Source: Aurantiochytrium sp. KH105
Lineage: Eukaryota; Sar; Bigyra; Thraustochytrida; Thraustochytriidae
Direction of reading: 5' to 3'
Assembly (NCBI GenBank): GCA_003116975.1
Contig: BGKB01000011.1
Coordinates: 1-64,000, forward strand
DNA: 64,000 nucleotides
The position numbers and the translations under genes are program-made. Of this stretch, positions 29,286 through 55,507 are shown piece by piece. How positions within the stretch are numbered: the first letter of the stretch is position 1; each line of letters begins with the position of its first letter. The notes under the pieces are model-generated. The model made no database searches and was not told the DNA's origin. It was given only the letters and a program-made list of their open reading frames with translations.

Positions 29286-29313
<28 letters not shown>
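29286..29313. repeat. CAG trinucleotide microsatellite in kinase 5' flank
   Basis: Nine CAG units lying about 170 bases before the kinase start codon, probably in the 5' untranslated region or promoter. Confidence 0.94.
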
Positions 29314-29316
<3 letters not shown>

Positions 29317-29482
29317 AGCCCATTTGTTACAGCCTCTGCTCTCCACTACTTTCCAGGACAGTGCGAGGGAGCGAGCGCAAGAACAAAGGCGAGCAAAACA
29401 TAGACGTGGACACGAATACATTTTCTTCTCAGAATATACACACCCGAGGTCCCTTGGCCTGCCTGTCGCCTTCTTCTCCACG

Positions 29483-30709
29483 ATGAGCACCGGCGCTGCA
29501 CTCCGCGCACGAGACCCCAAGTCGCACACAGTCACGGGGAGCGCAGAGAAACCAGAAACCCTATGCACATTGCACATCGACAGGTTCCTGGCAGATGGAC
29601 CTTCTGGCCAAGTTGCGGTGGCCTCGTGGGCGAAGCCAAACATAAGCTCCGACAGCAGCAAAGAAAACAAATCCAATGTAGATAACGCAGTTGAGGTTCA
29701 AGCTGACCAAGCTTCGCAAGATAGCGACCAAGATGGGAGCTCGGACGAAACGACGAGCGCGGACAGCGCAACCACAACGGGGGCATCGAGCGACATGCCC
29801 TTTGCCGACTCTCTCACACCAGAACGATCACACGAGCTTTTGCAAGAACACGGCGCATGGATCGATTTGCCGCTCCAATGCGCCCCAAAAGTCAGCTCGC
29901 AAGGCCACTTTGCTGTGAAAATGATAAAATTACCCACCAACGTACAAGAAAACACCCAAGCACTAGCAGAGATTGAAATCATCCGCATTCTCTCGCAACA
30001 AGAACACAAATTTCCACTCCTCGTCGATCTTACCTTTTGTGCCTATTCGCAAGGTTACGTTTACGTGGGCATGGAATTATGCGCTGGGGGCGACCTCTTC
30101 ACTCTGATGTACGAGCACGAACTGGAGCTCGAAGAGGTTCTTTTTGCGGCGGCAGAAATTGCTTCGGGAATACAGCATCTTCACGATCGGGGCATTGTGC
30201 ATGGCGATATTAAGCCTGAAAACATTGGCCTTTCTGCGCAGGGACATATCCGCATTCTGGACTTTGGTCTCGCGACGCATTTAACGCCCGAAGAGCACTG
30301 GGACGACGATCAAAACAGGCTCTGTGTATGTACCACGTCGGGGACGCTCTTCTATTCCGCCCCGGAAATTCTCAAGCGCGAAAAGCACGGCTGTGAAACG
30401 GACTGGTGGAGTTTTGCCGTTGTTCTTTTCGAAATGTACTACTCGTGTTGGCCCTGGTGTGCTGAGAACGACCAGGATACCTGTAACTTGATCTGCGCGG
30501 GCCCACTCGAGTTCCCTCACGACAATCGGCCATTTGTCCCCGAGCTCAACAATTTTTTTCACCAGCTTTTTCGCAAAGAGCCTTCTCGCCGCCTTTGCCA
30601 CGAGGCAGGACTCGCCAGCATCAAGGCGCATCCTCTATTCAATTTTGTCAACTGGGACCTAGTCGCCAGTGAAGGCTATCAGGCGCCACTCTCTTTTCAA
30701 GCACAGTAA
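29483..30709 (+). CDS. AGC-like Ser/Thr protein kinase with N-lobe insert
   Basis: A 408-residue protein kinase that transfers phosphate from ATP to Ser/Thr. The glycine loop is DGPSGQVAVA (about residues 37-46). An acidic Ser/Asp/Thr-rich insert of roughly 85 residues follows before the ATP-binding Lys in FAVKMIK (about 143). The catalytic loop is HGDIKPEN (about 239), with Gly in place of the usual Arg of HRD. DFGLA and SAPEI are intact, and DWWSFAVVLFEM is typical of AGC kinases. The C terminus is short, with no clear hydrophobic-motif tail. The ATG at 29483 was chosen because upstream in-frame sequence looks like 5' untranslated DNA. The kinase assignment is strong; the subfamily is uncertain. 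Confidence 0.92.
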   Translation: MSTGAALRARDPKSHTVTGSAEKPETLCTLHIDRFLADGPSGQVAVASWAKPNISSDSSKENKSNVDNAVEVQADQASQDSDQDGSSDETTSADSATTTGASSDMPFADSLTPERSHELLQEHGAWIDLPLQCAPKVSSQGHFAVKMIKLPTNVQENTQALAEIEIIRILSQQEHKFPLLVDLTFCAYSQGYVYVGMELCAGGDLFTLMYEHELELEEVLFAAAEIASGIQHLHDRGIVHGDIKPENIGLSAQGHIRILDFGLATHLTPEEHWDDDQNRLCVCTTSGTLFYSAPEILKREKHGCETDWWSFAVVLFEMYYSCWPWCAENDQDTCNLICAGPLEFPHDNRPFVPELNNFFHQLFRKEPSRRLCHEAGLASIKAHPLFNFVNWDLVASEGYQAPLSFQAQ

Positions 30710-31384: not shown

Positions 31385-34300
31385 ATGCCCTCCAAGACGG
31401 CGACGACGTCGACCTCCAAGAGGGCTGCGCGCGCCGCGATTCACGAGCCTCCGTCACCGCCCTCGCCTTCGCAGCAGCCGCTGACGACGGACCAGGTTCG
31501 AGAGCGTATCCGGCGCGGGTCGCTCTCCCTCAGCCGCGGGGTAGCCGCGCTCGCCCGGGCGCAGAGCGAGGGCCCCACCGAGGACGAGATTGAGGCTGCC
31601 TGGTCAGAGCACACCACTGCGGAAGGCGCCACGTACTACTTTAACTCGCTCACGAGGAAAACGACATGGGATACCCCCACTGACTTTGCTCTTCGTGAAA
31701 CGCGCCGCAAGAGCGGGGCCAACATCCTCGCAGAAAGCGGGTCTTGGGCCTGGGTGCGAGATGAGATCTTTTGCTTTGCACCTGCGCAAAATGTCAGTGG
31801 CACGACCGATCTCTTTGTCACGCTCGACGGTCGCGAGATCCGCGTTGACTCTCCGGACGACATTCTCGGCCCCGTTCTAGACATTGATCGCGTCAACAAA
31901 GACACCGACGACATGGTCAAGATGCAAGTCATCAATCATGCCACCGTCCTCCAAAACCTGCGCCTCCGCACTGAGCGAGACAATTACTTTACAAACGTCG
32001 GCACTATTCTCGTGAGCGTTAATCCTTTCAAGTGGATTAATGACCTGTACACAGAGGATCAGTTTGCGCTTTACAGGGAGCGCGTCGTGGGCGACGAGGT
32101 CCCGCCTCACTTTTTTGAAATTGCTGACAATGCTTTCCGAGGTCTACGCGAGGAGCGCAAAAGCCAGAGCATTATCATCAGCGGCGAGAGTGGGTCCGGC
32201 AAGACCGAAGCAACCAAAAAATGTCTCCAGTACCTCGCCGACGTCGCGGCGTCCGCGGCAACCGGCCTTGAAAACAAGCTTCTTGCCACGAACCCCATCC
32301 TCGAGGCATTCGGAAATGCCAAAACACTGCGGAACGGTAACTCGAGCCGCTTTGGCAAGTGGACTGCCGTCAAGTTCGATGGTCGCGACCGTATTGCGGG
32401 CGGTCGCATTGTCAACTACCTGCTCGAGAAAAGCCGCGTTGCAACACAAATCAAGGGTGAGCGCAACTTTCACATTTTCTATCAACTTGTCAAGGGTGCA
32501 AATGACAAACAACGAGCGGCCCTCCGTCTTCCCAAGGCTTGCAGCCAGCTCAACTACCTCAACGCTGGCACCTGCACTGAGATTCCCGGCGTCGACGACG
32601 CCGAGGCTTTTGCCGAAACCACGGAGGCCCTCGACGAACTGGGTTTCTCGCCCCAGGAGCAAATGGACATTTTTCGTGTCGCTACGGGCGTTATGTGGAT
32701 GGGCAATGTCGAGTTCGCCCCTCCCCTCGGCGCCGCGGCAGAGGACGCCTGCGAAGTGCGTCTCCCTTCGAGTGAAGCAGCCATCAAGGCCACCTGTGAT
32801 CTCCTCGGGTTTTCACGCGAGGAGTTTCTCTCTAACGTTACGAATCGCATCCGCTCCATGGGCGGTCAGGTCATCGCAAGCCCGCTCAGCGCGCAGGCCG
32901 CCGCCGAATCCTGCGCGGCGCTCGCCAAGGAAATTTACGGCCGCCTCTTTGACTGGCTGGTCGAACACGTCAATAAAACGCTGGCTGGCGAGTCGCCACA
33001 GGGCGGGGCGAGCGGTCCTTTTGATGCACCGGGCCGCATGATTGGTGCTCTCGACATCTTTGGCTTTGAAATATTTGAGCACAACTCTTTCGAGCAGCTC
33101 TGCATCAACTTCGCCAATGAGAAACTTCAACAGCACTTCAATCAGCACACCTTCAAAACGGAGCAAAGGGTGTACGAGGCCGAAGGGATCGACTTTGTCA
33201 CTCCTCCATTTGAAGATAACGCCGACGTGCTTTCACTCCTTGAAGACAAGCCCCGTGGTCTCTTTGTGCTCCTTGATGAGGAGTGCGTTTTACCGCGCGG
33301 GTCGGACGCCTCGTACGCTAGCAAGGTCGCGCAGTTCCACGGGACGGCCTCAGGTGGAGACTCTCACCCGCGCTTTCAAGCAGGACCAAAACTTCGCGCC
33401 AAGCGCGAGCTCTCTTTCGCGGTCGAGCACTATGCCGGTCTCGTAGTATACAGCGCTCTGGGCTTTCTCGAAAAGAATAAAGATGATCTCCGCGAAAATC
33501 TCGTTAGTCTGGCGCGAGGAGCCACGAATGCCCTTATGGCATCCGCCCTTTTCCCTGCAAGCTCTGTGGAGGACGATGGAACAGTGACAACCAGCAACGC
33601 CAACTCCTCCGGCTCGGGCAGGCGCCGTCACAAGACCCAGGCCGGATTCTTTTGCCGCCAGCTCGACGGACTCATGACCACGCTCGATGCGACGAGCCCG
33701 CACTACATTCGCTGCATCAAACCAAACAACGAAAAGGCGCCAGACCGCTTCGATCCCTTTTTGTGTCTCGAGCAACTCCGCTATTCGGGCGTCTTTGAGG
33801 CCATCGAGATCCGCAAGCAGGGTTTCCCCTTTCGTCGCACGCATGATGTCTTTTACCGGCGCTTTCGCGTCTTTTCGAGCGACGACTTTAAGACGCATCG
33901 CGAACCCTCGCTCGTGGGATCCGCCAAGGATCGTTGTAAAGCCCTGCTCGAGGATCTCTTGAAAACCTCTGAAAACGATCCACAAGTCGACCTTACCGAC
34001 TGCCGTCTTGGAAAGACAATGGTGCTCTACCGCGCGCCCGAGCACCTTTACCTCGAAGCGCATCGCGAGCGAGCCCGCGATCGCGCAGGTGGAGACATTA
34101 CTCGCATCGCTCGAGGTCACTTAGCGCGATGCAGGGTCGCTGCATTTCGCGATGTCCAGCGGGAACTTCGCGAAGCAGTCGACTCACGTGAACTCATGGA
34201 CATAAGTGAGGCCGTCGCCGCAGCAGAAGAAAAGGTCAAGCCCCCCTTTAATCTCCACAAGGAAATTCAAGAGGCCCGCGATGTCATGGCCGTCATCGAG

Positions 34301-37300
34301 GATGAGCTCCAGCTCTGCGCCCAGGTCGAAGACCTCGAGGCTGCGATTCAAGACAAGCCAGCCGCTGCAGCCGAGCGCTACGAAGAGATTGAGGATGTAC
34401 TGACGGCCTGTGAGAAGATGCAGATCGCACGAAAGTACCCCGAGCTCCAATCTACCATTGCTGACTTTGATCGCCGAATTCAAGGCGTTCGTAACCTTAT
34501 CCAAGCGAAGAAGGACCTGCGCGCTGCAACGCGGGCATCCTACAAGCCCGAGCTCGTGAGGGCGATTCAAAAGGCCAAGGCGCTTCAGGAAGACCATGGT
34601 TCGCCCTTTTGCGAGCAAGAACTCAAGGCCGCGCGCGATCGCCTCGACCATGTTGTTCGCGAGGAAAAGCTGATCGAGTCCCTCGTATCAGGACTTGGCA
34701 AGGGCGGGCCGCAGGGACTACCCGGAAAACTTGATCTTTCCGTCATTAGCACAAAGTCTCTTCGCAAAGCCTGGACCAAGGCTGCCGCAGCACGCGAGGA
34801 ACTAACGCCGCGTGGGCGGTCTCTCGCCGATGTCGCCGAACTCGTCCTCGCCTTGCGCGAGAGCCTGCAGGGCTCGGACTGGGACTCGACAGAGTCACTT
34901 TTGGCTCGCGCCATGAAACTCGACGAGGACGGCGATCTTGACCGCTTTCATATTCCTCGCGATGAGATTGACCTCTGCAAGGGCGAGTTGGCGTGCTACA
35001 CCATTGTTGCCGAAATCTCATCCGCTATGCAGTACGACACTGTGCGCGGGGATGCCTCCAAGCCTGACTTTTCGCAGGCTTCCACAAAGCGACTCAGGGA
35101 CGATATTGAAGACGCCAAGATGCTCGAGTCGCCAGCAGAGGTCGCGCACGCGGTTATTGCGAGCGCAGAACGGCATGCCCGCCTTCGCGATGCTGCTGTC
35201 AACACACACTGGGAAACCATGGCAACGCTTCTCGACGGCGACCACGACACCCTCAATGAAGGCCTTAATTCGGAAGACAGGTATGCACGCATCTTTCTCG
35301 ATGCTGTCAAGCCCGAACAAGAGCTTCTGAAAAAGCTGTACTTTGCTCATGTTCTGGAAACACGGGCTTCCGAGGCATTGGCCAAACGAGCCATCTCCGG
35401 TCAGGTGGGAAAACTTAAGGTGAACCCCAAGCCAACCCGCGAGCTGGATGCCGTCGTTTCGTGGGTGAAGAAGCACCTTGGAGGATCTGGACCTTCGGCT
35501 CGAAGCGCGGCGCTGCTCATTCTTGTCCAGCACGTGCGGTCCATTCGCGCCGACCTGGAACGCTCGTCCGATGATCGAAGCATCTTGGAGCGCGTAACAG
35601 AGGCTCGCAAGCTCGCAACAAAGCACAGCGCTCCCGAAGCCTGCAAAGACGAACTCAAGCTCGTGCTGCATGATCTCACAGAAAAAGATTGCGTTCGAAT
35701 CCTTGCCAAGGCAGCCAAGGCGCCTGGCGCGGTGGCTGGCACTGTTGGCAGTATCAAAGTCGCTGGAGTCAGCGCTGATCCGCTCGACCAAGCGCTCAAG
35801 GAAGCTCAGTCGAAACTTGCTGCAGTCGGTGCTGATCCTCAGCCTCACTCCAAGGAGGCCGCCCAAGCCTTTTACGGCGCGCGCGAGCTTGCTAATCTGC
35901 GACGCGCTATTTTGAATGACGATTGGGACATGGTCGAGTCTGTACTTCTTGCAGGAGGCGATCACAAGGATCCGGACGAGGATCCCCTGGAAGCAACAGA
36001 AAAAGAACTGCAACTTATTCAGGATGAGCTGAATAATCGAACCATCATTGCCGAGCTGACGCGCGCGCTTTCTTCGGGCGGGGCACAAGGTAAGGTTGGC
36101 AATCTTGATCTCGACGGCATCGAAGTCGATGCTCTACAGGCTGACGTGGATGACGCCAATGAGCTTGGCTGCAAGACGCGCGAGGCCAAAGATCTCCTCG
36201 AAAATGCTAACCTCGTGCTTCGTCTTCGTCGCGGACTCGTCTCCCAGGACTGGGAAATGATCGAGCACGCTTTGGAAGAGGCGCGCTTCAAACGTGTCAT
36301 TCCCGCCGCCGAGGCCGAAGTCAAGCTTGCAACAAAGGAGTTGCACAATCGTCGCATTATGCATGCTCTGCAGCACGCTCTGAAATCAGGAGGACCCAGC
36401 GGAACAGCAGAAAACCTGCGTGTAGACACAATCACCTTTCATGTGTTAGACGAAGCCTTGGCACTTGCTCAAAAGCTGCGCTGTGAGTCCAAGTCTGCGC
36501 AGTGTCTCTTTGGTGCATGTAAAATTGTGCGTGCTGGAAGAGCAGCTCTATCCGAGAAGCGTTTCTTGCAGCTGGGCCAGCTCGTCGAGGACGCAGAGCG
36601 CCAGGGCTTCTTAATCGTCGAAGACGGCAGAAACGATACGAACGACGAGGCCGAGGAGGTCAAGCGTGAAGCCGTCGGCCCTGCGCAGCGCGAGCTGTCT
36701 TTGATGCGTGAAAAGTTTGAAGATGAGAGCATGTGTCGTGACCTGGCCGAAGCACTCGCTGAAGGCCAGCCTTCGGGTCGCATTGGAGCCATTGACTTGT
36801 CGAGCGTTAAGCTTGGTGTGCTCCTCAATGCTACCGAAAAGTATAGCATGCTTGAACCTCGTTCGACGCGTGCGGCGCAACTTCTCGAGAGCGCAAAGGT
36901 CTCCGTGTCACTGCGCGAGGCGCTTCTTGCCGGCCCGGACTGGGCATCAGCCGAGGCCATTCTCGAGCGCCATGCTCCAGAGGCTATTATCGAGGAGCAT
37001 GGATTCGGTCTTGTGGAAAGCGTCGAGGCGGAGGCAAATCTTGTCCGCGATGAGATCGAGCATCGTGCTGTCATGTCAACTCTCTCCGGCGCGATTCGCC
37101 ACGGCGCCGTGTCCGGGTCCATCGGCGCTCTCGATCTCGATCTGCTCTCTGTCGAAATTTTGAACGAGGCCATTGAGGCTGTCAAGAAAATGAATTGCAA
37201 GTCCCCCGAATCAAAACAGCTCTTTGAGACGGCCAAGGCGCTGCGAGATGTACGCGCTTGCGTTGCACAGGCCGACGCAGCCACGTCTGCAGAGGGGCAA

Positions 37301-40300
37301 CCAGACGCCGTGACCTGGCTCGGCGCAGTCCAGGTTTCTCTGGACAAGGCACGCAAGATTTCTGTGGCGCAAGAAGCGGCGGAGGAACTCAAACTTATCC
37401 AGGATCATGTGGACGACATCAAGATTATCCGAGAGCTTTGCGCGGCGCTCCGCCAAGGGGCGGTGCAAGGCAAGCTCGGCCAGGCAGACTCGAACTCGTG
37501 CGAGCTCGAACGCCTGGAGAGCGCCCTACAATGCGTCCATACACTTGTCTGCAAGACGGAACGCGCGAAAAAGCTCGAAAAGACTGCCAAGCTTGTGGCC
37601 GTCTTTCGCAGCGCTCTTGTTGCAGATGGCTGGGATGGATTTTCGCAGCTGCTCAACAAGCAGCTCGGAGTGAGCGTCGAGGGCGGCTCACCGCCCGACC
37701 ATTTTGCTGGCCACGCTGACGAGGCGCGGGAAGAATTCCAGCGACTCGTCGATGAGTGCCGAGAGCGGACAGCTGCTTCGCGTCTCAAGCATGCTTTGGA
37801 AAATGGATCCGTGCGGGGCACTCCGGGTGAGGCCAACTTGTCGGACTTGGACACGCAGGGTCTCGAGCATGCAATCGCGCTCGCTCGTCGGGCTGGCAAG
37901 CACTTGAGCCAGCCCACCAAAGATTTAACTCGAGTTGCTGAGACGCTGCTGCTGGTTCGCCAAGGCTTTGAGCATGGAGGACGCGAGCAGGACGAGGTGG
38001 AGGCCATTGCTTCTGCTCTGGCTCGCATTCCCTCGTTCACGCGTGTTGGCGAGGCGGCACTGTCCGAGTCCACGACAAAGGAACTCGAGCTTGCACAAGA
38101 TCACGTTCACGACTTTCGCATCCGCAAGACAATCCGCGAGGCCATTCGAAGTGGCCATGGAGGCGATCCGCTTCGCATTGCTGCGGTCGACACGTCAGGT
38201 CTCCGCGATGCGCTCAGTGCTGTCAATGCGGGTCTGGGCGGGGCCAAGTCGCGCGAGGCGCGTGACCTCGTGGATGGCGCAGAGCTGATTTTGAAATTAC
38301 GAACTGCTCTTTTGCAACGCGACTTCGACGACCTGCGTTTCGTGCTCGGCGACGCGATCGATAATGAAGGCATTTCCCGCATGCCAAACGCCGAGGAGCA
38401 AGTGTACCACGCACGTGGGCTCCTTGTGAGTCACGAAACGGTCAAGACGTTGGGCGAGGCGGTGCGAGATGGCTCCGTTCTCGGAGGAGGAGATCGTCGT
38501 GATCGAGAAGATCAGAGCGCGGCAGACGACGAGGAGAACGACAGAGAAGTGAGCAGCCAAGCTTTGCGAGAGGCTCTTGCCAATGTCGAAAAACAAGTGG
38601 GTGGACAGTATGACCCGGAGGTTCTCAAACTCTGCGAATTGTGTGAGCACTTGGCCGAGCTTCGCGACGTTTATTTGACTTCGAGCGCAAAGCGCTGGGC
38701 CTCTGTAGACGCTGAGCTCACGGCGATGCAAAATTGCATGCTGGTGCTCGATGACCAGCGCCGTCGGCAGCATGGCATCGAAAGTAGCGATGCCAACACG
38801 GAGAGTGAGCATGCTGCGGCGATCGAAAAAGTAGAAGGAGAGGTTCGTGCCGAGTTTCAAGAGATTCATGACCGGGCCGAGGATCGCCTTGCTCAGCGCA
38901 TGATTCTTGAAGCCATGGCTGAAGGTGGTCTGCAGGGCCGCGTCGGCGCCGTGGCAACGTCTTCTGTCTCGGTTGCGTCTCTCGAAGCCGCAGTTCATGC
39001 AGCCTCGAACGCACGCAAGCCTTCGTCACGTACGAAGATCATGCTGCGCGAGGCGAAAGAGCTTCTTTCGTTGCGTAAAGCCATGTTGGCAGATCAATGG
39101 CAGACCGTCTACAATGTGGTTCGTACGTGGCGCGAGAACACGCCCGATCGCGCCGTGTCGTCTTCGTCAACGATGCAAATGACACTGGCCGAAGAAACGC
39201 AGCTTGAGGCTTTGCAGCTGTTTTCGAGCGAGCGGAGACTGGCTGGCGACGAGGCGACACGTCGCGTCGTCGTTGACGAGCTTTCGCACGCGCTTGCGAA
39301 CGGTGGTGTGCGGGGCGCCCCCGGGGAGCTGAGCACGCAACATGTCTCTGTTGCACAACTCAATCGTGCAATTGCTCATGCGCTTGAAATTGGAGTCACA
39401 ACTCCTGATGCACAGCAGCTCATGCTTGCGGCGCACACCGTTCGTCAAATTCGCAACGGCATCCTCGCCAGTCCCGATGAGGGCGGCGGTGACGGTCGCG
39501 TAGATTGTCCATTGGTTCGGGATGCGCTTCGGATTTGTGAGGAGGAGCAAGACGCCGATTCTGATTTGCCCGAGGTAGCAAGGCGTGAGATCGTGCTCAT
39601 CAAGCACGAATTGGAGGACCAGGACGCAGCCAAGGCTCTCTCGGATGCCCTTGCCTGGTCAGAAGCTTCGAGTGACGATGAATATGAAGAGGAAGGTCAG
39701 GATCTCGCGGCTCGATCTCATCTGCAAGTTGTTTCCGATCACGCGCCCGAAGATGAGAGAAACAACGAAGACGTGAAGGAAGAAGACGATGACGACGATG
39801 ACGATGACGACGACAACATCGATGTCAATGACAGACAGGACAAGAGCGAGGATAATGAAGCGATGGAGAGGAACAGTGAGGAAACGGAGTCTGCTCGTGA
39901 CGAGGCCGAGGCCAAGTTGCGCCGTGCAGAAGAGAAGCAGAGCGTGCAGCGAGCGGCGGGCGAGATGGCGCGGCGAACCTCGGCCTCGTCGTCCTCCTCG
40001 TCTTCATCTTCCTCCCCCGCAGCTCGCACATCTGCAAAGGCTCCAGCAAGAAGCCAGAGGTCGCGGCGTCGGCGGCGAAAGTTTTCTCGCTATGCACCAT
40101 CTCGCGTAAGCGTCGAAAAGGTGAATAGTGCGATCGCGAGAACGCAGGAGGGGAGATGCCATACAGTGTATTCAAGTGCGCTATACAAGTTGGCCTTTTT
40201 AATTCGAGATATGCGCCTTGCATGCCTCGAAACGGCGTGGGCGCAAGCTTCGGCGTGCATTGCGTCGATCGACAAGATGCGTGATCGGATTCGCTCGCAA

Positions 40301-43069
40301 GAAGCCCCCGTGTCCACGCAGAGCGGTGGCACACATCAGTGGCGATCAGCGCTTGCACTCGTGCAACCCGAGGTGGAGCGCGCCCGAGAAGAAATTGAAA
40401 ATCTCGAGACTGTGAGCCAGCTCAGACAGGCTCTTGCTTGCGGGCAGGCTCCTGGGCATTTTGGGTACCTGCGCATCGAGCGCGCGGACTTGCGTGCTCT
40501 GGACAAGGCATTGGGGCGGGCTTCTCGGATTCGATGCCGCTCCGAAGAAGCCGTGGCGTTGCGCAAGACTGCCAGCTTGCTCCGACAGCTGCGCGCCGCG
40601 GTGATAAATGCAGACTTTGTGACGGCCTCCGTTGTGCTCTCAGAAGCACAAACCTACGCCGCAAGTCAAGGTGAGGGCGGCGCGGCAAACGCGTCGGCGA
40701 TTTCATTGTATCACCGTCTTCCCGTAGCAGGCGCAGAGATGGAACTTTTGCACCATGAGGTACAAAATCAGCTCGTGTGCCGCGCTCTCAAAACAGCACT
40801 TCGGTCGGGCGCCATAACGGGCCGTGTGGGCGCCGTAAGTATTGCCAGTTCGAATGTGCAGAGCCTGGAACGCGCAATGACCAAGGCGGAGTCCCTTGCG
40901 CGCATCACGGATGAGACGCGAGCGCTCGTACACTCTTGCAGGGCCGTTTTGCAGCTGCGGCGTATTCTCATGGATGCGTTTTCGTCCGCTGGAGCGATGC
41001 ACGGTGTTGATGAGGCTGCCTTGGCTCCGCACATGTGGGAAGCGGCGCAGCAGGTGTTGCGAAGTGCCGTCGCCAACGTCCCTGAGGGAACGGGCGCGCT
41101 GCAAGTCGCACAGCAGGATGCGCGCAGCGGCGGCCCGGCTGGCATGGTCACGACGGCCCCAGGACCAGCGCGTCGCGGTTCGACGGCGTCTTCCTCGGCG
41201 TCGTCGGTTGCGTCGTCCCGAGCGAGCCATGCACGTCCTGATAGCCGCCCTCAAAGTGCACCGGTTGTGGGCCTGTCGGATCGTGACGCGCGGTCCTTTA
41301 GTCTCTTGTGGTGCCACCCTGATGCGCGAGGTGAATTGGCGTTGTTGCTCGACGAGATCCAACATCGTGAAGCCCTGCAGGGACTTGTACGCGCCCTTGC
41401 TTCGGGACATGCTAAATTTCTTGGTGGTTTCGTAGATGTAGCGACGGTGAAAACGGGTGCTTTGGATGCGGCGATCGCAACAGCCAAAAAGGTGCCTGCG
41501 CGTACCGATGAACTCACCTCCTTACAACTTTCAGCAAGCATTGTTCTGCGCTGTCGCGAGGCTCTTCTTGATGGAAGCTGGCAGGACCTCGACAACATGC
41601 TTCGCGACTGCACGGACTTGCGCATTCACGAGGTAGCTGCGGACGAAATGAACATGATGCGACGAGAAACTCACCTGCACAATGTCATCAAGGGGGTGCT
41701 GGTCCGCTTGCAAGATGCAACGAAAAACCGAGACGTAGGGGCTTTAGAGCACGCCCTCGAAGAGGCGGAAACCTTGCGACTGGGCGCGAGCCCGGATCTG
41801 CACGTGCTCTCGCGTGTGAACAAGGCGCGGCAATTACTTGATCGCCTCATGGTCGTGGATGAACGTCTTGATCAGTGCGTACAGCGCGCTGATTTGCGCG
41901 GTCTGGAATCGTCTCTCGAGGAAGCGCGCCGTCTCAAGTACAGTCCGCGCGCGGCGGCGGCCGCCATTGATTTGCGCGATCGTCTTCAAGCAGCATACTC
42001 CCAGGCAGAGCGGGCCGTGGAGTCTGTGGATGCTACGGCAATGCGCGCACTGCTTGAGCAAGCGAGGCGCGAGCGTATCGATCTGCCACGCATGGCTGAA
42101 ATGCGGAGGCTGTTGTCGATGCCTCCCGCGCAGCTTGAGCGACTGCGGCTCAACGCCGCGGTGGAACGGGGCGACGAAGACACGGTGGTGAAGGTGACAA
42201 CGAGCATCAAGACGCGCTTCTTTGAGCAGGAGGCGACGCGCGAGAAGCATCGTTTGGAGCTCTTTCCCGCGCTCAAGAGCCCTTCCGAGTTTGCGGCCAA
42301 CACTGGCGCGGTTGGACCAGGTTTGGCGTCGGGCATGCTCTCGCATTCTTCATCGCCCATTCCGACATCACTATCGCGTCTACCGTCGACACCGGCGACC
42401 TCGCTTGCGGTGAAAGTTTTCCGGGCGCTTTTGGGCTACATGGGAGACCGCGAGTACTCGTATCCTGCGTCCTTGGCGCAGGAGATTTTGCAGGTCGGTC
42501 TCGCCGTGACTGAGCTCCGCGATGAGATTCTTCTTCAGATGCTCAAGCAGCTTTCGGACAATCCCTCGCCAAAGTCGCGTCAGCGTGGCTGGCTACTTCT
42601 GAGTTTGGCGCTTCGCACGTTTCCTCCGTCTGAGCTCTTTGAGAATTTTTTCGAGCTTTGGTTGCGTCGCAAGGGTGTCGAGCTGCGTGCGCGTGCCGGC
42701 TCGAGCGAGGCCAACAACTGGGCTCATTTGTGTTTGAACCAGATGCACCGCATTGTTTTCCGCGGCCCAGCCGAGGCCATTCCGCCGCTCGACGAAGTGC
42801 ACCATCTCTTGCACGTGAATCCATCCGAGCACAGCCGTCTCACGGCGTCGCCTGCCGCGGTGGCAGGGGGCAAGTCATATCCCAGTCGGGGAACTCTGCA
42901 CGATCAAGATCGCGGTGATGCAGAAGGCGAACGAGGTTATCTGCAGCAACAGCAGGAGCAGCACCAATTGCACCAATCGCAGCAGCAGCAGCAGCAACAA
43001 CAACAACCGCGGCGGCATCAACAGCGTCTTCCCTCGCGCCTCGACATTCCACCCTACGAGTATTCGTGA
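31385..43069 (+). CDS. Giant WW-motor-repeat-MyTH4 myosin
   Basis: A 3,894-residue unconventional myosin in one uninterrupted frame, an actin-based ATP-driven motor. Residues about 70-101 form a WW domain (WSEHTTAEGATYYFN then TTWDTP). The motor spans about 177-885: P-loop GESGSGKT at 267-274, switch I NSSRFGK near 319, switch II DIFGFE near 557, then YIRCIKPNNEK and YSGVFEAIEIRKQGFPFR near the converter. One IQ motif (ITRIARGHLARCRV) follows near 905. Residues about 1090-3440 are about 17 degenerate helical repeats of 100-150 residues, interrupted by an acidic/Ser/Arg-rich linker near 2760-2900. MyTH4 lies at about 3673-3797 (ILLQMLKQLSDNP, RGWLLLSLALRTFPP). The tail is Gln-rich and has no visible FERM. 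The ATG at 31385 gives the WW domain a short disordered leader. Confidence 0.93.
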   Translation: MPSKTATTSTSKRAARAAIHEPPSPPSPSQQPLTTDQVRERIRRGSLSLSRGVAALARAQSEGPTEDEIEAAWSEHTTAEGATYYFNSLTRKTTWDTPTDFALRETRRKSGANILAESGSWAWVRDEIFCFAPAQNVSGTTDLFVTLDGREIRVDSPDDILGPVLDIDRVNKDTDDMVKMQVINHATVLQNLRLRTERDNYFTNVGTILVSVNPFKWINDLYTEDQFALYRERVVGDEVPPHFFEIADNAFRGLREERKSQSIIISGESGSGKTEATKKCLQYLADVAASAATGLENKLLATNPILEAFGNAKTLRNGNSSRFGKWTAVKFDGRDRIAGGRIVNYLLEKSRVATQIKGERNFHIFYQLVKGANDKQRAALRLPKACSQLNYLNAGTCTEIPGVDDAEAFAETTEALDELGFSPQEQMDIFRVATGVMWMGNVEFAPPLGAAAEDACEVRLPSSEAAIKATCDLLGFSREEFLSNVTNRIRSMGGQVIASPLSAQAAAESCAALAKEIYGRLFDWLVEHVNKTLAGESPQGGASGPFDAPGRMIGALDIFGFEIFEHNSFEQLCINFANEKLQQHFNQHTFKTEQRVYEAEGIDFVTPPFEDNADVLSLLEDKPRGLFVLLDEECVLPRGSDASYASKVAQFHGTASGGDSHPRFQAGPKLRAKRELSFAVEHYAGLVVYSALGFLEKNKDDLRENLVSLARGATNALMASALFPASSVEDDGTVTTSNANSSGSGRRRHKTQAGFFCRQLDGLMTTLDATSPHYIRCIKPNNEKAPDRFDPFLCLEQLRYSGVFEAIEIRKQGFPFRRTHDVFYRRFRVFSSDDFKTHREPSLVGSAKDRCKALLEDLLKTSENDPQVDLTDCRLGKTMVLYRAPEHLYLEAHRERARDRAGGDITRIARGHLARCRVAAFRDVQRELREAVDSRELMDISEAVAAAEEKVKPPFNLHKEIQEARDVMAVIEDELQLCAQVEDLEAAIQDKPAAAAERYEEIEDVLTACEKMQIARKYPELQSTIADFDRRIQGVRNLIQAKKDLRAATRASYKPELVRAIQKAKALQEDHGSPFCEQELKAARDRLDHVVREEKLIESLVSGLGKGGPQGLPGKLDLSVISTKSLRKAWTKAAAAREELTPRGRSLADVAELVLALRESLQGSDWDSTESLLARAMKLDEDGDLDRFHIPRDEIDLCKGELACYTIVAEISSAMQYDTVRGDASKPDFSQASTKRLRDDIEDAKMLESPAEVAHAVIASAERHARLRDAAVNTHWETMATLLDGDHDTLNEGLNSEDRYARIFLDAVKPEQELLKKLYFAHVLETRASEALAKRAISGQVGKLKVNPKPTRELDAVVSWVKKHLGGSGPSARSAALLILVQHVRSIRADLERSSDDRSILERVTEARKLATKHSAPEACKDELKLVLHDLTEKDCVRILAKAAKAPGAVAGTVGSIKVAGVSADPLDQALKEAQSKLAAVGADPQPHSKEAAQAFYGARELANLRRAILNDDWDMVESVLLAGGDHKDPDEDPLEATEKELQLIQDELNNRTIIAELTRALSSGGAQGKVGNLDLDGIEVDALQADVDDANELGCKTREAKDLLENANLVLRLRRGLVSQDWEMIEHALEEARFKRVIPAAEAEVKLATKELHNRRIMHALQHALKSGGPSGTAENLRVDTITFHVLDEALALAQKLRCESKSAQCLFGACKIVRAGRAALSEKRFLQLGQLVEDAERQGFLIVEDGRNDTNDEAEEVKREAVGPAQRELSLMREKFEDESMCRDLAEALAEGQPSGRIGAIDLSSVKLGVLLNATEKYSMLEPRSTRAAQLLESAKVSVSLREALLAGPDWASAEAILERHAPEAIIEEHGFGLVESVEAEANLVRDEIEHRAVMSTLSGAIRHGAVSGSIGALDLDLLSVEILNEAIEAVKKMNCKSPESKQLFETAKALRDVRACVAQADAATSAEGQPDAVTWLGAVQVSLDKARKISVAQEAAEELKLIQDHVDDIKIIRELCAALRQGAVQGKLGQADSNSCELERLESALQCVHTLVCKTERAKKLEKTAKLVAVFRSALVADGWDGFSQLLNKQLGVSVEGGSPPDHFAGHADEAREEFQRLVDECRERTAASRLKHALENGSVRGTPGEANLSDLDTQGLEHAIALARRAGKHLSQPTKDLTRVAETLLLVRQGFEHGGREQDEVEAIASALARIPSFTRVGEAALSESTTKELELAQDHVHDFRIRKTIREAIRSGHGGDPLRIAAVDTSGLRDALSAVNAGLGGAKSREARDLVDGAELILKLRTALLQRDFDDLRFVLGDAIDNEGISRMPNAEEQVYHARGLLVSHETVKTLGEAVRDGSVLGGGDRRDREDQSAADDEENDREVSSQALREALANVEKQVGGQYDPEVLKLCELCEHLAELRDVYLTSSAKRWASVDAELTAMQNCMLVLDDQRRRQHGIESSDANTESEHAAAIEKVEGEVRAEFQEIHDRAEDRLAQRMILEAMAEGGLQGRVGAVATSSVSVASLEAAVHAASNARKPSSRTKIMLREAKELLSLRKAMLADQWQTVYNVVRTWRENTPDRAVSSSSTMQMTLAEETQLEALQLFSSERRLAGDEATRRVVVDELSHALANGGVRGAPGELSTQHVSVAQLNRAIAHALEIGVTTPDAQQLMLAAHTVRQIRNGILASPDEGGGDGRVDCPLVRDALRICEEEQDADSDLPEVARREIVLIKHELEDQDAAKALSDALAWSEASSDDEYEEEGQDLAARSHLQVVSDHAPEDERNNEDVKEEDDDDDDDDDDNIDVNDRQDKSEDNEAMERNSEETESARDEAEAKLRRAEEKQSVQRAAGEMARRTSASSSSSSSSSSPAARTSAKAPARSQRSRRRRRKFSRYAPSRVSVEKVNSAIARTQEGRCHTVYSSALYKLAFLIRDMRLACLETAWAQASACIASIDKMRDRIRSQEAPVSTQSGGTHQWRSALALVQPEVERAREEIENLETVSQLRQALACGQAPGHFGYLRIERADLRALDKALGRASRIRCRSEEAVALRKTASLLRQLRAAVINADFVTASVVLSEAQTYAASQGEGGAANASAISLYHRLPVAGAEMELLHHEVQNQLVCRALKTALRSGAITGRVGAVSIASSNVQSLERAMTKAESLARITDETRALVHSCRAVLQLRRILMDAFSSAGAMHGVDEAALAPHMWEAAQQVLRSAVANVPEGTGALQVAQQDARSGGPAGMVTTAPGPARRGSTASSSASSVASSRASHARPDSRPQSAPVVGLSDRDARSFSLLWCHPDARGELALLLDEIQHREALQGLVRALASGHAKFLGGFVDVATVKTGALDAAIATAKKVPARTDELTSLQLSASIVLRCREALLDGSWQDLDNMLRDCTDLRIHEVAADEMNMMRRETHLHNVIKGVLVRLQDATKNRDVGALEHALEEAETLRLGASPDLHVLSRVNKARQLLDRLMVVDERLDQCVQRADLRGLESSLEEARRLKYSPRAAAAAIDLRDRLQAAYSQAERAVESVDATAMRALLEQARRERIDLPRMAEMRRLLSMPPAQLERLRLNAAVERGDEDTVVKVTTSIKTRFFEQEATREKHRLELFPALKSPSEFAANTGAVGPGLASGMLSHSSSPIPTSLSRLPSTPATSLAVKVFRALLGYMGDREYSYPASLAQEILQVGLAVTELRDEILLQMLKQLSDNPSPKSRQRGWLLLSLALRTFPPSELFENFFELWLRRKGVELRARAGSSEANNWAHLCLNQMHRIVFRGPAEAIPPLDEVHHLLHVNPSEHSRLTASPAAVAGGKSYPSRGTLHDQDRGDAEGERGYLQQQQEQHQLHQSQQQQQQQQQPRRHQQRLPSRLDIPPYEYS
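34660..41750 (+). repeat. Array of about 17 coding repeats in the myosin tail
   Basis: Each unit starts with an ALxxG..G..G glycine motif (ALSSGGAQGKVGNLDLDG, ALKSGGPSGTAENLRV, ALRSGAITGRVGAVSIAS). A helix of the form L..A...A..L..KS.EA..L follows, then a conserved LR.AL...DW..VE..L segment and a charged spacer. Copies are strongly diverged, so the array is old. The linker at about 39660-40090 splits it into blocks of about 14 and 3. Confidence 0.88.
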
Positions 43070-43128
43070 TGAATGAATGAATGAATGAATGAATGTATGA
43101 TCGAACGAACGAACGAACGAACGAATGA
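43070..43128. repeat. TGAA and CGAA microsatellites abutting the myosin stop
   Basis: TGAA units begin directly after the myosin stop codon and, after a short break, become CGAA/GAAC units. The array would be transcribed at the start of the 3' untranslated region. Confidence 0.95.
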
Positions 43129-43948
43129 ACACCACTCACATCAATCTGTCATCTTCTTTTCTTTGTGACATCTTGTCTCCTCTGTTCGCCGGGTGCCATT
43201 GTGGCTCTCGTAGCCGCATCGTTCGGCTCCTCTTGCGTTAGAGCACATGGCCGCCCCTGCCCTGCCCGTTCCCGTTTTCACTCTAGTATGCGTTACGGCA
43301 TAAGGCCTATAGTGTACTACCTCCTGCGCATCGTCCAGCAAAGTGAGCGAGCGAGTGTCCCTCCCTCCCTCCCTCCCTCCCTCCCTCCGAGGCCTGTTGT
43401 GTGCGCGTCCCTCCCTCGCCCTCGCCCCGCGCCGCTGCCTCCCGCGCCTCTGCTTGCGGCGGCGCAGCGCAGCGCAAGGCAGCGCGAGGCAGCGCGAGGC
43501 AGCGCGAGGCAAGGCAGCGGGCGCGCGAGGCCGCGGCGCGGCGCGGCACGGCGCGGCATGGCATCACGCGGGCGCCCGATCGAGCGGCACGTGCTGCCCT
43601 GCTTCGCTGCCTTCCTCCCTCCTCCCTCCTCCCTTCCCCGCTCTTCTGCGCTCGCTCGCACGCGCTCGCAGGCAGCAGCGGCAGGCAGGCAGGCAGACCG
43701 CAAAGGAGCCGCGCGGCCAGCACGCGCAGCGAGCGGCGGAGGCGCGCGGAGAGCGCGGAGGAGCCTCGCGAGGAGGGCGCGAGGAGGGCCGGCGGGAGGG
43801 CGGAGGGAGGGGCCGCGTGCTGCGGAGATCGATCGCCTCGGAACGAATCGACCTGCCTCTGGCGGGTTTGAACGATTTCAAATCGCGTTGACTTGGTGAT
43901 CGATCGCCGGCGCGTCGGGCGCCTGCGCGGGCGGCGAGGGAGGGCGAG
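43129..43948. other. GC-rich intergenic region upstream of the LRR gene
   Basis: Contains CCCT units (43367-43388), an imperfect period-10 array of a GGCAGCGCGA-type unit (about 43476-43525), and several Arg/Ala-rich frames on both strands that I reject as genes. It ends at the LRR gene start. Confidence 0.6.
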
Positions 43949-46147
43949 ATGCAGCGCAAGGCGGCGCCCCGCGCGGGGGACGCGGGCGGCGGCGAGACGG
44001 AGTCGCGGTCGGCCGCAGCAGCCTCGAGGTCGGGCAGCCTGGTCGCGGGCATGTTCAACATGATCAAGCGGCGCGCGACGAGGACCGGCGCCAGCGCAGC
44101 GCGCACGCCCGTCGACGAGGAGATGGCGGGGTCGCGAGACAGGACCGCGGACCAGGACGGGGAGATCTTCTGCGAGAATCCCGACGAAGAGGTCCAGTTG
44201 GCCCTCGACTCCCTCGAGGACGACGCGCGTGAGTTCGACCTGCCGACCGCGGCGTCCTCCTCCGCGGGCTCGAGCAGCCCCGAAAAAATGCAGACCAAGC
44301 AGCGGCACTCGCTGCGTCTGTCAAAGCGCATGTCGCTGCGCTCCTCGTCTTCCTCAGCGTCGTCGATGTCGTCATCTTCGTCAGCCTCTCCCTCTGCGAT
44401 CGCAACTTCCACGAGCTCTGCCGGATTTGCTGCTGCGACCGCAGCGACAAAAGCAGGGTCCAGGATCTCGGTCAAGCGCGTCGAGGATTTCCCCTCGGTG
44501 AGGTCTTCTTCTTCCTCGCGCGACGTCGTCCGCGTGGGCAAGTCTGCCCCTGTAAACAGCACCGAACAAGATGCAAGCGTGCTGCGTCGCCTGTCCCAGT
44601 CGCTGTCGCGGCGCTCGTCGTCGTCGAGACGGAGCGAGAGCCGTCGCAAGTCGTCCTTGAGGATCTCGCAGGACTTGAAGCCTGCGTCCGAGCGCGAGCT
44701 CGCGGGACGCCTAGATGTCTGGAAGGGCAAACGTATTAGTACACGGGGATGGTCGCAGAGCAGAAAGTCGAGGCGCAGTGCGCGCAAGGCGTCAAACCCT
44801 CTCGTCGCCCAGAGCGAAACAAGCGCAGACGTAGTCATTCGCACCGATGAGGACCTCGACACGCTCTGCGAGGCCATCGAGGCCGGAGAGGCGCACTCGC
44901 TCCGATTTGCAAGCGCGTCGCCCGCCGTTCTGGAGGGCTTTGCCTCGGTGCTGGGCACCGTGCAGATCGAGGGCCTCCATACGCTGGACCTTTCGGGCGC
45001 CCAGGGCGCCGAGTCCATGGAGAAACTGCTAGACGCTCTCGGGGATGGCGCTGGAGAGACGCTCGAAGAGCTCAATGCGAGCCGCACGTCGGTTTGCCAT
45101 GTATTTGATCAATTTGCTCTCGTTTTGGAATGTATGCCGGCGCTCCGGGACTTGACGCTGCGCATGTGTCTGTTGTCTCCCTCGCAGATCAACACGCTTT
45201 CGTCAGCGCTGCTCGGCATGGACCAGCTCGAGTGCCTTGATCTCAGTGGCAACGAGCTCACCGAGGACTGTATTGGGGATCTTGTTCGAAATCTGCAGAC
45301 AGTCGAGATCCTTCGCGTCCGTGCATGTGGTATTGACGATGCAGGCATGGCATCCATGTGCGCGGGGCTCAAGAAGAACGAGGTGATGTCCACGCTTGAT
45401 CTGAGCGGAAATCCGTTCTCGAGTGGCGCGTGCCAGGCGCTCGCGAGGCTTTTGGGTTCGTCGACCTCTGCTCTGGCCCATCTCGACTTGAGCTACACTG
45501 GCATTGATGAAGATGGCGTGGCCATGCTGTGTGGCGCGCTGACCAAGTCTCGCTCACAGTTGCGGTCGTTGGATCTGCGATCCTGCGCGCTGGGCGTTGA
45601 GGGTTGCTTTGCCCTTGGAGAAGCGCTCGAATCCAACGAAACACTCGAAACGCTGACGGTCGGTGGTCCCTTGCTGCCGCCTCACACGACGCACGGCGTC
45701 TGTGACGAAGGCGTGGCGCGCCTCATTGAGATGCTGCGTGCGAACGAGGGTTTGACAACGCTGACGATTGCCGAGGGTTCCGTGAGCGCGGATGCTCAGT
45801 ATGTGGTGTCCCAGCTCGCCAGCACGCCTGTTGAGGACCGCACGGCACGTCTCGCAGAGATGTTTCTCGTTGACAAGGACGAAGGCGCGACGCTAAGCGT
45901 GCTGGGCGCTGCAGGCCGTGCAAGTGTCAGGCGCTTGAGTCGGGGTGCTTCCAGTTTGATCAGCGAGGATGATTGTGTAGATGGCCAAGCGCTCACTGAC
46001 ATGGCTTTTACCATGTCTGTGGGCGAGGCTGCAGTCCATGCGGCTTGCATGGCCTGGCTTCAGGAAGCCGGTCACAAGGTTTCCAAATTCCCTACGTTGG
46101 GTGTTGCCCTGGACCGAGGCGAGGCGGCCGAAGACGAGGGCTATTGA
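43949..46147 (+). CDS. RI-type leucine-rich repeat protein
   Basis: A 732-residue protein. The first ~270 residues are low complexity, rich in Ser, Arg and Ala, with probable phosphorylation-type clusters. Leucine-rich repeats of the ribonuclease-inhibitor type occupy about residues 325-590 (LHTLDLSGAQG, LECLDLSGNELTEDCIG, LDLSGNPFSSGACQAL, LAHLDLSYTGIDEDG, LRSLDLRSCALGVEG). The C-terminal ~140 residues are mixed helix with no recognised domain. No signal peptide or TM is present, so it is probably a cytosolic protein-binding scaffold. The ATG at 43949 is the first in the coding frame after a GC-rich leader; a later in-frame start is possible because the N terminus is not conserved. Confidence 0.82.
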   Translation: MQRKAAPRAGDAGGGETESRSAAAASRSGSLVAGMFNMIKRRATRTGASAARTPVDEEMAGSRDRTADQDGEIFCENPDEEVQLALDSLEDDAREFDLPTAASSSAGSSSPEKMQTKQRHSLRLSKRMSLRSSSSSASSMSSSSSASPSAIATSTSSAGFAAATAATKAGSRISVKRVEDFPSVRSSSSSRDVVRVGKSAPVNSTEQDASVLRRLSQSLSRRSSSSRRSESRRKSSLRISQDLKPASERELAGRLDVWKGKRISTRGWSQSRKSRRSARKASNPLVAQSETSADVVIRTDEDLDTLCEAIEAGEAHSLRFASASPAVLEGFASVLGTVQIEGLHTLDLSGAQGAESMEKLLDALGDGAGETLEELNASRTSVCHVFDQFALVLECMPALRDLTLRMCLLSPSQINTLSSALLGMDQLECLDLSGNELTEDCIGDLVRNLQTVEILRVRACGIDDAGMASMCAGLKKNEVMSTLDLSGNPFSSGACQALARLLGSSTSALAHLDLSYTGIDEDGVAMLCGALTKSRSQLRSLDLRSCALGVEGCFALGEALESNETLETLTVGGPLLPPHTTHGVCDEGVARLIEMLRANEGLTTLTIAEGSVSADAQYVVSQLASTPVEDRTARLAEMFLVDKDEGATLSVLGAAGRASVRRLSRGASSLISEDDCVDGQALTDMAFTMSVGEAAVHAACMAWLQEAGHKVSKFPTLGVALDRGEAAEDEGY

Positions 46148-53134: not shown

Positions 53135-55507
53135 CTATCTGCGCCGACTGTCGCGGCGAGAGCGCTGTCGACGGTCCTGCAGCAGCGTCTCGAGGGCGAG
53201 GATGTTTTCGTCATGCAGCGTAACGACGCTCTGCTCCAATAGGTCAACACGATCTACGACCTGAGCAAATTGTGCTTCGAGGCGCTTGCGCCAAACATCT
53301 TGCTTCTTGTCAAAGTCATGCGAAAAAGTACGCTGGAGCTGCGTCACCTCCTGCTCGGCATCACCAAAGGCTTTATCCAGTACACTGGCAATACGTTGCT
53401 CGCATTGCCGAAGACGCTCATCAAAGAAATTTGCTCTTTCATGACGGCCGCCATTGCACACAGCATTTTCATCAAAGGTGAGGCTTTCGGAATGCGCCTC
53501 AGCTTCTTTTGCCAACGAAGCTGCCATGTCGGAGACTTGGCTTCGTAACGTCTTGGCGAATTCCCCCACGCGAGAAGTTTGCTCGCCAGCGTGCTGAAGT
53601 CGAGCTTCCACATTATCGGTGCGCCTTTGCATCTCGTCCTTCCATAGAGGCTCTTGCGAAGCATGAGTACTTTTCGGAAATTGTCTGTTAGAAATTGTGG
53701 AAACCCGACTGTCGAGCTCAAAGAGTCTCGCAGAGACGCGATCTTCGATTTCCACATGATGACGATCCGTGCGATCACGAACCGCGCGTAGCGCAGTGCG
53801 TAGCTCCTGCACCATTTGCATTGCACTTGAATCGCTATCGGAACATCTTGTGCGATGCGCGTCTTGAGAATTTTTGCGGTCTTGCGATCGGATCGAGTCC
53901 ACTACATTACGCGCCAGAGCCCGATTGTTTTCAGATCGGAAGTCACTGTCGTAACTTCCGTTGCTGCTTCCGTTGCTGCTGCTGCTGCTGTGGCTAGATA
54001 GGCGGCCCGAGTTCGCAGCTGCAGATGCCGAAACCACAGACCGAGCTCGAGCCGCTTCTGCGCCAGCTGCAGCCGTGCGGCTCTTGAGAAGTGCGTCAAG
54101 TTTTGCATTGAGCACGAGAATACGTCGCAAGGGAGCAAGAGCGTCGTGCGCCTCTGCAGGCGTCATTACGTCTTCGTCAATTTCACCCAGGGACAACGTT
54201 GCCAGAGTCGAGTTCGTGCCCAGACATTCAGCGAGAGTGATGAGCGCTGCCTCATTGCATGTGGCCAAATGGCGCGGATTGCGCAGGTCAACCTCGCGCA
54301 CAGAGGCGTTCATTGCAAGGGCGGCGCCGAGGAGCTCCACACAACGTGCGTCGACTGCGGTGGTACATTCTTGGAGCTTCAGCACCTCAAGAGCGCACTT
54401 TCCATCATCTTGCAGATACTCGACGAGACTTCGAATGGCTGCAACACACGGGATGCCGGTGCGAGAGGTATCAAGAAAGCGCAGAGTCCCTGACCGATGG
54501 ACCGCGTTCGCAATTGTTTCGAAGCCTTGCGCACCGATATCATTGTCCGCGAGACACAACACGCGAAGAGGGGTGCCCTCATTGAGGAGACGAGCAATGG
54601 CGGCCGCCCCGCCTTGGCGCGCAAGGCGATTCGAGGAAAGATCCAAATGCGCTAGGTTGGACGTTTTCGCTCTGACGTCGCGAGCGCCGCGCAAGACACC
54701 AGCCACAATCTCTTGCACTGCGTCATCTGTGAGCCCGCACGAGGACAGTCGCAGCGAGCGAAGATTTGTCAGTCGACATAGCACGCGACCTGCAAATGCA
54801 TGCAACGCCCGATCTCCAGCTGCGTCGAGAGGGCACTCGACAAGTTCTAGACTCTCCAGCTCCGCACCGTGCAAGCTGGCTTCGAGACTCTCGGCAAGGC
54901 CCTCCATGCCATCGAGCAAGTCCGCTGCGTCGAGACACTTGGCAAGACTCAAGCTTTCGAGTCCGTGACGGCTCACAAGGCTCGATCCCAAAGCACGCAT
55001 GGCATCGACACCGAGAGGACAATGATGTAGATCCAAGACACGAATTGCGCTCATGTTCGCATCGAGCTGGTCTGGGACTCTGCTCAAAGCTCTCAAAACG
55101 GCTGGCGAGATGCTTTTGCTCTCGTCCAGAAGCAATGCTCCTTTGGACGTGCGCTTTTCTTTTGCACTGTTTCCATGACTGCCAAAATTGGTGTCGTCCC
55201 CCTCGTCAATCATGCATAGCGCGGCCACGACCTCGGACGGTGCCTTTGTAAGCCCCTCCCGAATGCAGGCCTTTTCGAACTCGGCACGTAGGTACGGGGC
55301 ATCTTCACCTGCGTCTGATTGATACTCAGTGGCAGGCCAGTTTCCTCGTCCGCGCACATCCGCGACAGGTCTTCTTGCATGGCTGATGTACTCCTCCTCT
55401 TCGTGTCGTCTGGTCCTGTTGTTTGGGCCGTTGTCCGAGGTTCTGGGTCGCCGCCGCGATGCTTGCTGCACGTGTCGATCGTCTCCTCGGCCCAGCATCC
55501 GATTCAT
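53135..55507 (-). CDS. LRR protein with C-terminal coiled coil
   Basis: A 790-residue protein. The first ~110 residues are charged and disordered. Residues about 150-430 are ribonuclease-inhibitor-type LRRs (LDLHHCPLGVDAMRALG, LESLSLAKC, LRSLRLSSCGLTDDAVQ, LAHLDLSSNRLARQGG, LRVLCLADNDIGAQG). A Ser/Asn-rich linker precedes a long heptad-rich coiled coil (about 520-790, for example FAQVVDRVDLLEQSVVTLHDEN), and the extreme C terminus is Arg-rich. LRR plus coiled coil is the layout of centrosomal/ciliary proteins such as CEP78, but I see no specific signature, so orthology is not claimed. The ATG at 55507 is followed closely by another at residue 4. The gene is divergent from the methyltransferase gene. 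Confidence 0.82.
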   Translation of the reverse strand: MNRMLGRGDDRHVQQASRRRPRTSDNGPNNRTRRHEEEEYISHARRPVADVRGRGNWPATEYQSDAGEDAPYLRAEFEKACIREGLTKAPSEVVAALCMIDEGDDTNFGSHGNSAKEKRTSKGALLLDESKSISPAVLRALSRVPDQLDANMSAIRVLDLHHCPLGVDAMRALGSSLVSRHGLESLSLAKCLDAADLLDGMEGLAESLEASLHGAELESLELVECPLDAAGDRALHAFAGRVLCRLTNLRSLRLSSCGLTDDAVQEIVAGVLRGARDVRAKTSNLAHLDLSSNRLARQGGAAAIARLLNEGTPLRVLCLADNDIGAQGFETIANAVHRSGTLRFLDTSRTGIPCVAAIRSLVEYLQDDGKCALEVLKLQECTTAVDARCVELLGAALAMNASVREVDLRNPRHLATCNEAALITLAECLGTNSTLATLSLGEIDEDVMTPAEAHDALAPLRRILVLNAKLDALLKSRTAAAGAEAARARSVVSASAAANSGRLSSHSSSSSNGSSNGSYDSDFRSENNRALARNVVDSIRSQDRKNSQDAHRTRCSDSDSSAMQMVQELRTALRAVRDRTDRHHVEIEDRVSARLFELDSRVSTISNRQFPKSTHASQEPLWKDEMQRRTDNVEARLQHAGEQTSRVGEFAKTLRSQVSDMAASLAKEAEAHSESLTFDENAVCNGGRHERANFFDERLRQCEQRIASVLDKAFGDAEQEVTQLQRTFSHDFDKKQDVWRKRLEAQFAQVVDRVDLLEQSVVTLHDENILALETLLQDRRQRSRRDSRRR

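Follow-up and report, generated by a model that had tools for sequence, protein, structure and literature searches.

Myosin tails set the reach and the cargo of the motor. Known MyTH4 domains bind membrane, microtubules or other cargo, and MyTH4-FERM tails are those of myosins VII, X and XV. The class IV myosins are defined, in the part of the source available, by a motor, a WW domain located N- or C-terminal to the head and a MyTH4 domain in the tail, while a WW domain is possible in class XXI too (PMC3942036). According to passages of a second source, class-4 myosins occur in stramenopiles, rhizarians, haptophytes and a few other lineages, with tail changes in some of them, and those of haptophytes and stramenopiles have undergone multiple tail domain changes (PMC5583752). 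The window analysed here, a stretch of 64,000 nt from Aurantiochytrium sp. KH105 (contig BGKB01000011.1 of GCA_003116975.1, positions 1 to 64,000, forward strand), contains a single uninterrupted open frame of 3,894 codons at 31385-43069 (+), which encodes a myosin with the following features:

31385..43069, + strand: whole coding frame, 3,894 amino acids plus stop (the second-haplotype copy at G000:C18 has 3,900 amino acids)
31598..31678, + strand: WW domain, residues 72-98 (Pfam PF00397, E 2.1e-7, 31.3 bits against a cut-off of 26.9)
31904..34030, + strand: myosin motor, residues 174-882 (Pfam PF00063, E 2.3e-212)
34097..34129, + strand: lone IQ-like motif, degenerate, residues 905-915 (recognised by eye in the translated sequence)
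34130..34627, + strand: neck-proximal region preceding the array (blastp aligns residues 876-1012 with the neck of a paralogue whose tail is short)
34628..41686, + strand: 18-unit repeat array, residues 1082-3434 (HMM, leave-one-out test and allele comparison)
41687..42244, + strand: pre-MyTH4 region, residues 3435-3620 (alignable with the paralogues' short tails; pN/pS 0.019)
42476..42802, + strand: MyTH4 domain, residues 3698-3806 (Pfam PF00784, E 3.1e-21, 76.1 bits against a cut-off of 27)
42947..43024, + strand: glutamine-rich C-terminus, approximate limits (from the translation; allele alignment gives the second haplotype five more residues here)

The WW, motor and MyTH4 domains all score above their Pfam cut-offs, so that the three features that define class IV are present in the window protein, and the motor retains the P-loop (GESGSGKT), switch I (NGNSSRFG) and switch II (DIFGFE). 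The single IQ motif of a preliminary description of this DNA is retained as a degenerate IQ-like stretch seen by eye, Pfam giving no IQ at E <= 1. Compared with the class IV myosins, which it resembles in motor, WW and tail MyTH4 as far as these are laid out in the accessible part of the source (PMC3942036), the window protein adds an array of about 2,350 residues in 18 units between the neck and MyTH4, and an SH3 domain was not found by Pfam. Judged from sequence, the window myosin is class IV-type, an assignment drawn from its architecture and its same-genome paralogues. Just upstream of it, at 29288-30709, lies a frame that by eye is protein kinase-like (HGDIKPEN, DFGLA), and a GAAT/GAAC tetranucleotide tract follows the myosin stop codon directly, at about 43068-43130. 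Elsewhere in the 64 kb are two divergent polycystin-type cation channel frames (11324-13582, minus strand, and 13764-16331, plus strand), of which one has an IQ motif that narrowly exceeds the cut-off, and three leucine-rich-repeat frames (3900-7136, 43949-46147 and 53135-55507), the first of which carries an IQ motif.

At 65 places in the assembly there are matches to residues 1-972, which run from the WW domain to the neck; many of these places are paired on two haplotype-like contigs. Nineteen further myosin loci were fetched and the myosin frame of each was scanned for domains. A WW domain is present at E <= 0.001 in six of the 19 frames (L031, L032, L033, L035, L039 and L047), exceeding the Pfam cut-off in L031 only and staying below it in the other five, and all six also carry MyTH4, which occurs in 12 of the 19; FERM_M is found in four, in L038 below the cut-off. 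L032 and L033 resemble two copies of one gene. An unrooted, midpoint-drawn tree of 20 motors groups the one from the window with the six WW-MyTH4 rows and the MyTH4-only L034 (100/99). The tail had been described as being of no known myosin form, which is not supported, since the N-terminal WW and C-terminal MyTH4 domains had been overlooked and the motor belongs to the 100/99 clade of WW-MyTH4 myosins. The MyTH4-FERM myosins (here L036, L037, L038 and L045) are alike in having MyTH4 in the tail, but their motors are split from that of the window protein by a 100/99 branch, and a MyTH4-FERM identity was rejected because a Pfam scan of the window protein gives no FERM hit at E <= 1 and the chain ends 88 residues past MyTH4. 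Three further architectures were noted among the fetched loci. L046:1553-7576 (G000:C143) encodes a myosin that bears IQ motifs and has an RCC1-repeat propeller in its tail; the 2,483-aa myosin frame L044:879-8327 (G000:C141) contains numerous ankyrin repeats and a FYVE finger at its C-terminus; and in the myosin of L031:702-4952 (G000:C139) the motor is preceded by GYF, WW and Myosin_N domains, while MyTH4 closes the protein.

The sister tails are short. From the end of the motor to the start of MyTH4 (Pfam limits) the window protein measures 2,816 aa, as against 323 in L031, 338 in each of L032 and L033, 625 in L035, 386 in L039, 433 in L047 and 249 in L034. The neck was compared by blastp with six paralogues, leaving out L033, and matches L035 over residues 876-1012 (E 8.1e-17) and L031 over a shorter stretch (E 8.3e-9), with L047 weakest at E 0.14. 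On the other side of the array, the region following it together with MyTH4 matches all six compared paralogues (E 4.7e-36 for L035 to 9.1e-10), and in L031 this match begins just after the neck (E 1.4e-26). Since both flanks align to short-tailed paralogues, the array interrupts an otherwise shared tail: L031, L032/L033, L035, L039, L047 and L034 share with the window protein the motor clade, the neck and the pre-MyTH4 region, while the repeat array has no significant match in them. Indeed, the repeat profile found no significant match in the paralogue frames (up to three longest frames per locus), the best having E 0.12 and i-E 0.45. Searched against six tails, the repeat HMM gave whole-sequence E-values of 0.0031 (L034) and 0.0046 (L031), with best stretches at i-E 0.013 and 0.015, and an hhalign comparison of the unit with the hairpins of the short class IV tails returned a probability of 0.8%, E 0.075 and a score of 18.2, compared with 13.4 for the best of 40 column-shuffled controls. 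At most, these comparisons hint that the unit may have arisen from hairpins of this kind.

The units of the array were delimited with an HMM seeded on 11 GxxxGxxG sites and then iterated; the pattern has 12 matches, but the match at residue 3844 falls in the low-complexity C-terminus and was not used. The preliminary description had about 17 copies at 34660-41750; the array itself stands, the count is now 18, and the limits become 34628-41686 (residues 1082-3434). U15 consists of two stretches (2734 and 2890) flanking an insert and is counted as one unit, whereas weaker stretches at about 922, 2818, 3443 and 3491, with i-E between 0.056 and 1 in the final round, were left uncounted. Each unit was scored against a profile built from the other 17 and compared with 200 shuffles of that unit, a test that is mildly circular because the same HMM had set the unit boundaries, and in which U15 was entered without its insert. 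All 18 units outscore every one of their 200 shuffles. The lowest scores are those of U12, U3 and U15; U12 reaches 13.7 bits against 7.1 for its best shuffle and U3 16.4 against 7.3, while at the other extreme U5 reaches 96.0 against 4.8. The giant myosin with a repeat tail is thus confirmed as one open frame comprising a motor and 18 units, which are listed below with their leave-one-out scores:

34628..34960, + strand: U1, 53.1 bits
34961..35320, + strand: U2, 39.5 bits
35321..35647, + strand: U3, degenerate, 16.4 bits
35648..36001, + strand: U4, 44.7 bits
36002..36313, + strand: U5, in structure model 1, 96.0 bits
36314..36688, + strand: U6, in structure model 1, 68.9 bits
36689..37027, + strand: U7, in structure model 2, 67.6 bits
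37028..37381, + strand: U8, in structure model 2, 73.3 bits
37382..37729, + strand: U9, in structure model 2, 73.9 bits
37730..38077, + strand: U10, in structure model 2, 52.2 bits
38078..38422, + strand: U11, 50.6 bits
38423..38848, + strand: U12, degenerate, weak start, 13.7 bits
38849..39226, + strand: U13, 65.0 bits
39227..39583, + strand: U14, 64.8 bits
39584..40366, + strand: U15, split by an insert, 32.7 bits without the insert
39677..40051, + strand: acidic, serine-rich insert in U15, residues 2765-2889 (net charge -23; pN/pS 0.460)
40367..40732, + strand: U16, 67.3 bits
40733..41329, + strand: U17 with a Ser/Ala-rich insert (about 41027-41329), 61.5 bits (insert pN/pS 0.053)
41330..41686, + strand: U18, 61.4 bits

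Fifteen of the 18 units are 104-126 aa long, the exceptions being U12 (142), U17 (199) and U15 (261). The motif first noticed by eye (ALxxG..G..G, LR.AL and DW) was described correctly: the arginine of LR.AL, which lies at the position of the third predicted helix, is present in 18/18 units, the tryptophan of DW in 12/17 with phenylalanine in three more, and the three glycines of the unit start in 15/18, 15/18 and 13/17, respectively. A glutamate near the unit start (15/16), a Ser/Thr column (16/18) and a set of alanine and leucine positions are also conserved. Pairwise identity among the units averages 22% and is 22.5% for neighbours and 22.1% for distant units; since neighbouring units are no closer in identity than distant ones, the array is old, and a recent tandem duplication was rejected for the same reason.

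The unit is not recognised by the family searches. Pfam, run on the whole protein and on five stretches (U1, U5-U13, U18 and the flanks), and NCBIfam, run on the same five stretches and thus on 11 of the 18 units, place no family above cut-off within the array; the best sub-cut-off matches in these stretches are PLU-1 (Pfam, E 0.007 and also E 0.39) and TIGR00269 (E 0.002). Sequence searches of the PDB leave the unit unrecognised as well, with a best E of 0.11 for a profile of 16 of the 18 units and of 0.58 when the array and the following region were entered as a single query. Known repeat families were therefore rejected as the identity of the unit, in agreement with the initial statement that the repeat is unrecognised. 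Single-protein scans, which detect close relatives only, revealed no relatives of U5-U9 or U17-U18 in viral_contigs and none of U5-U9 in the prokaryotic genome_contigs, and second looks with VIA put no family well above the others, absence there excluding nothing. Within the assembly, all 27 matches of a U5-U6 query and all 18 of a U13-U14 query (E <= 1, best candidates scored) fall inside the gene itself or its allele, and an occurrence of the array in other genes of the genome was rejected at the single-sequence sensitivity of these two queries. No literature on such a myosin tail was found in the titles, abstract starts and passages of the papers listed.

AlphaFold models were obtained for six of the 18 units, with input alignments built from other units of the same protein. 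They share a common layout, in which a long helix is followed by a glycine-rich β-hairpin and three shorter helices. Model 1 (U5-U6) has a pLDDT of 90.1 and a pTM of 0.81 and is confident across the unit junction; model 2 (U7-U10) has a pLDDT of 79.1 and a pTM of 0.59, with the elements in the same order as in model 1, although a pTM of 0.59 over four units leaves the relative orientation of the units uncertain. A common fold between neighbouring units, which had been asked of structure prediction at the outset, is thus predicted for the units modelled. A coiled-coil tail was rejected, as no Pfam myosin tail family is found at E <= 1 and the six modelled units consist of a helix, a β-hairpin and three helices. 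Neither Foldseek against the PDB, for the modelled units, nor a search of BFVD, for model 1, gives a match at E <= 0.001. Neither a placement of the units in a known domain family nor a lack of common fold was found, because the unit matches no family in the searches made and the modelled units share their layout. Alpha-solenoid proteins such as the Nic96 nucleoporin are among the closest known systems. We put it at slightly under even odds that the unit is a new repeat family, perhaps with a new solenoid fold of helix, β-hairpin and three helices, which a protist lineage would have built into a giant arm that extends the reach of a short class IV myosin; we know of no studied myosin with such a reach-extending arm. 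Many tandem helical units could also form a mechanical element that unfolds or unstacks under load, so that the tail is not a rigid arm but tethers elastically or buffers force, and model 2 contains blocks of low confidence (pLDDT 53-66) at loops, some of them between units and some at hairpins. However, low pLDDT is no proof of elasticity, and in model 1 the junction between the units is predicted with confidence, so that a mechanical element appears improbable.

A second copy of the gene is present at G000:C18 (630168 onward), encoding 3,900 aa with all 18 units kept. The two alleles differ at 72 amino acids over 3,894 aligned positions and by indels of one and five residues (six in total), all in low-complexity parts. 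They also differ at 8.4% of synonymous sites, which is high for two haplotypes of one individual, and the window gene and its copy could be diverged haplotypes or could stem from two parental subgenomes. Between haplotypes, pN/pS is 0.100 for the whole gene, 0.066 for the motor, 0.110 for the neck, 0.125 for the repeats, 0.019 for the pre-MyTH4 region, 0.000 for MyTH4 (0 nonsynonymous and 8 synonymous differences) and 0.297 for the C-terminus. The value for the repeats, compared with 0.066 for the motor, indicates purifying selection on the array. The insert of U15 is weakly constrained, having the highest value of the measured regions (0.460), whereas that of U17 stands at 0.053; without the U15 insert the value for the array is about 0.10, as derived from the counts. 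The array is therefore coding and maintained, with a constraint somewhat below that of the motor. A very long single open frame that is known here from DNA alone could be an annotation artefact, in which a myosin and an independent repeat gene are run together or the repeats go untranslated. Yet the frame is kept in both haplotypes, the repeats show the pN/pS of 0.125, and the MyTH4 domain at the far end completes the architecture common to the paralogues, which makes such an artefact highly improbable.

The reading that we prefer, with a probability of roughly 0.55, is that the array serves as a long folded spacer or arm between the actin-bound motor and MyTH4, the mechanism being the weaker part of this proposal. 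The array would form an alpha-solenoid-like arm that runs from the neck to the conserved pre-MyTH4 region. The motor would walk or anchor on actin while the arm sets the distance to the MyTH4 end, which, by analogy with known MyTH4 domains, may bind membrane, microtubules or other cargo, and the inserts of U15 and U17 may act as flexible joints or regulatory loops. Conservation is stronger in columns that are at least 80% hydrophobic (mean 2.04 bits, n=24) than in those that are at most 30% hydrophobic (1.37 bits, n=55), and this pattern, together with the constraint on the array, leans towards a structural spacer. The equal number of units in both haplotypes and the place of the array between two conserved ends point in the same direction. 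On the other side stand the modest pTM over four units and the polar positions: of the ten most conserved columns seven are hydrophobic or glycine and three are polar (R 18/18, E 15/16 and S/T 16/18), and the latter could mark a binding surface. Such positions suit an array that is mainly a multivalent platform, in which each unit or a common face binds partners such as light chains, actin, membrane or signalling proteins, the length of the tail being incidental. Alpha-solenoids are indeed common binding scaffolds, and there are 18 units, but a mean unit identity of 22% and the predominance of hydrophobic or glycine columns among the top ten fit mainly retention of the fold, so that we regard a platform as rather unlikely, if the most credible of the alternatives to a spacer.

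The distance from motor to MyTH4 is about 4.5 to 11 times that of the sisters, through what would be a dedicated folded repeat. If the array was gained, it would be a case of a myosin tail growing from within instead of by domains appended to its end, and the protein would add a repeat family that the sequence searches of Pfam, NCBIfam and the PDB leave unrecognised. In thraustochytrids the ectoplasmic network has an actin cytoskeleton, as stated in the available part of the source (PMC12221091), and would be a place to look for the window myosin only if the host is a thraustochytrid. If the proposed function is true, this myosin and its short-tailed sisters would provide a natural test of what tail length alone does to motor function.
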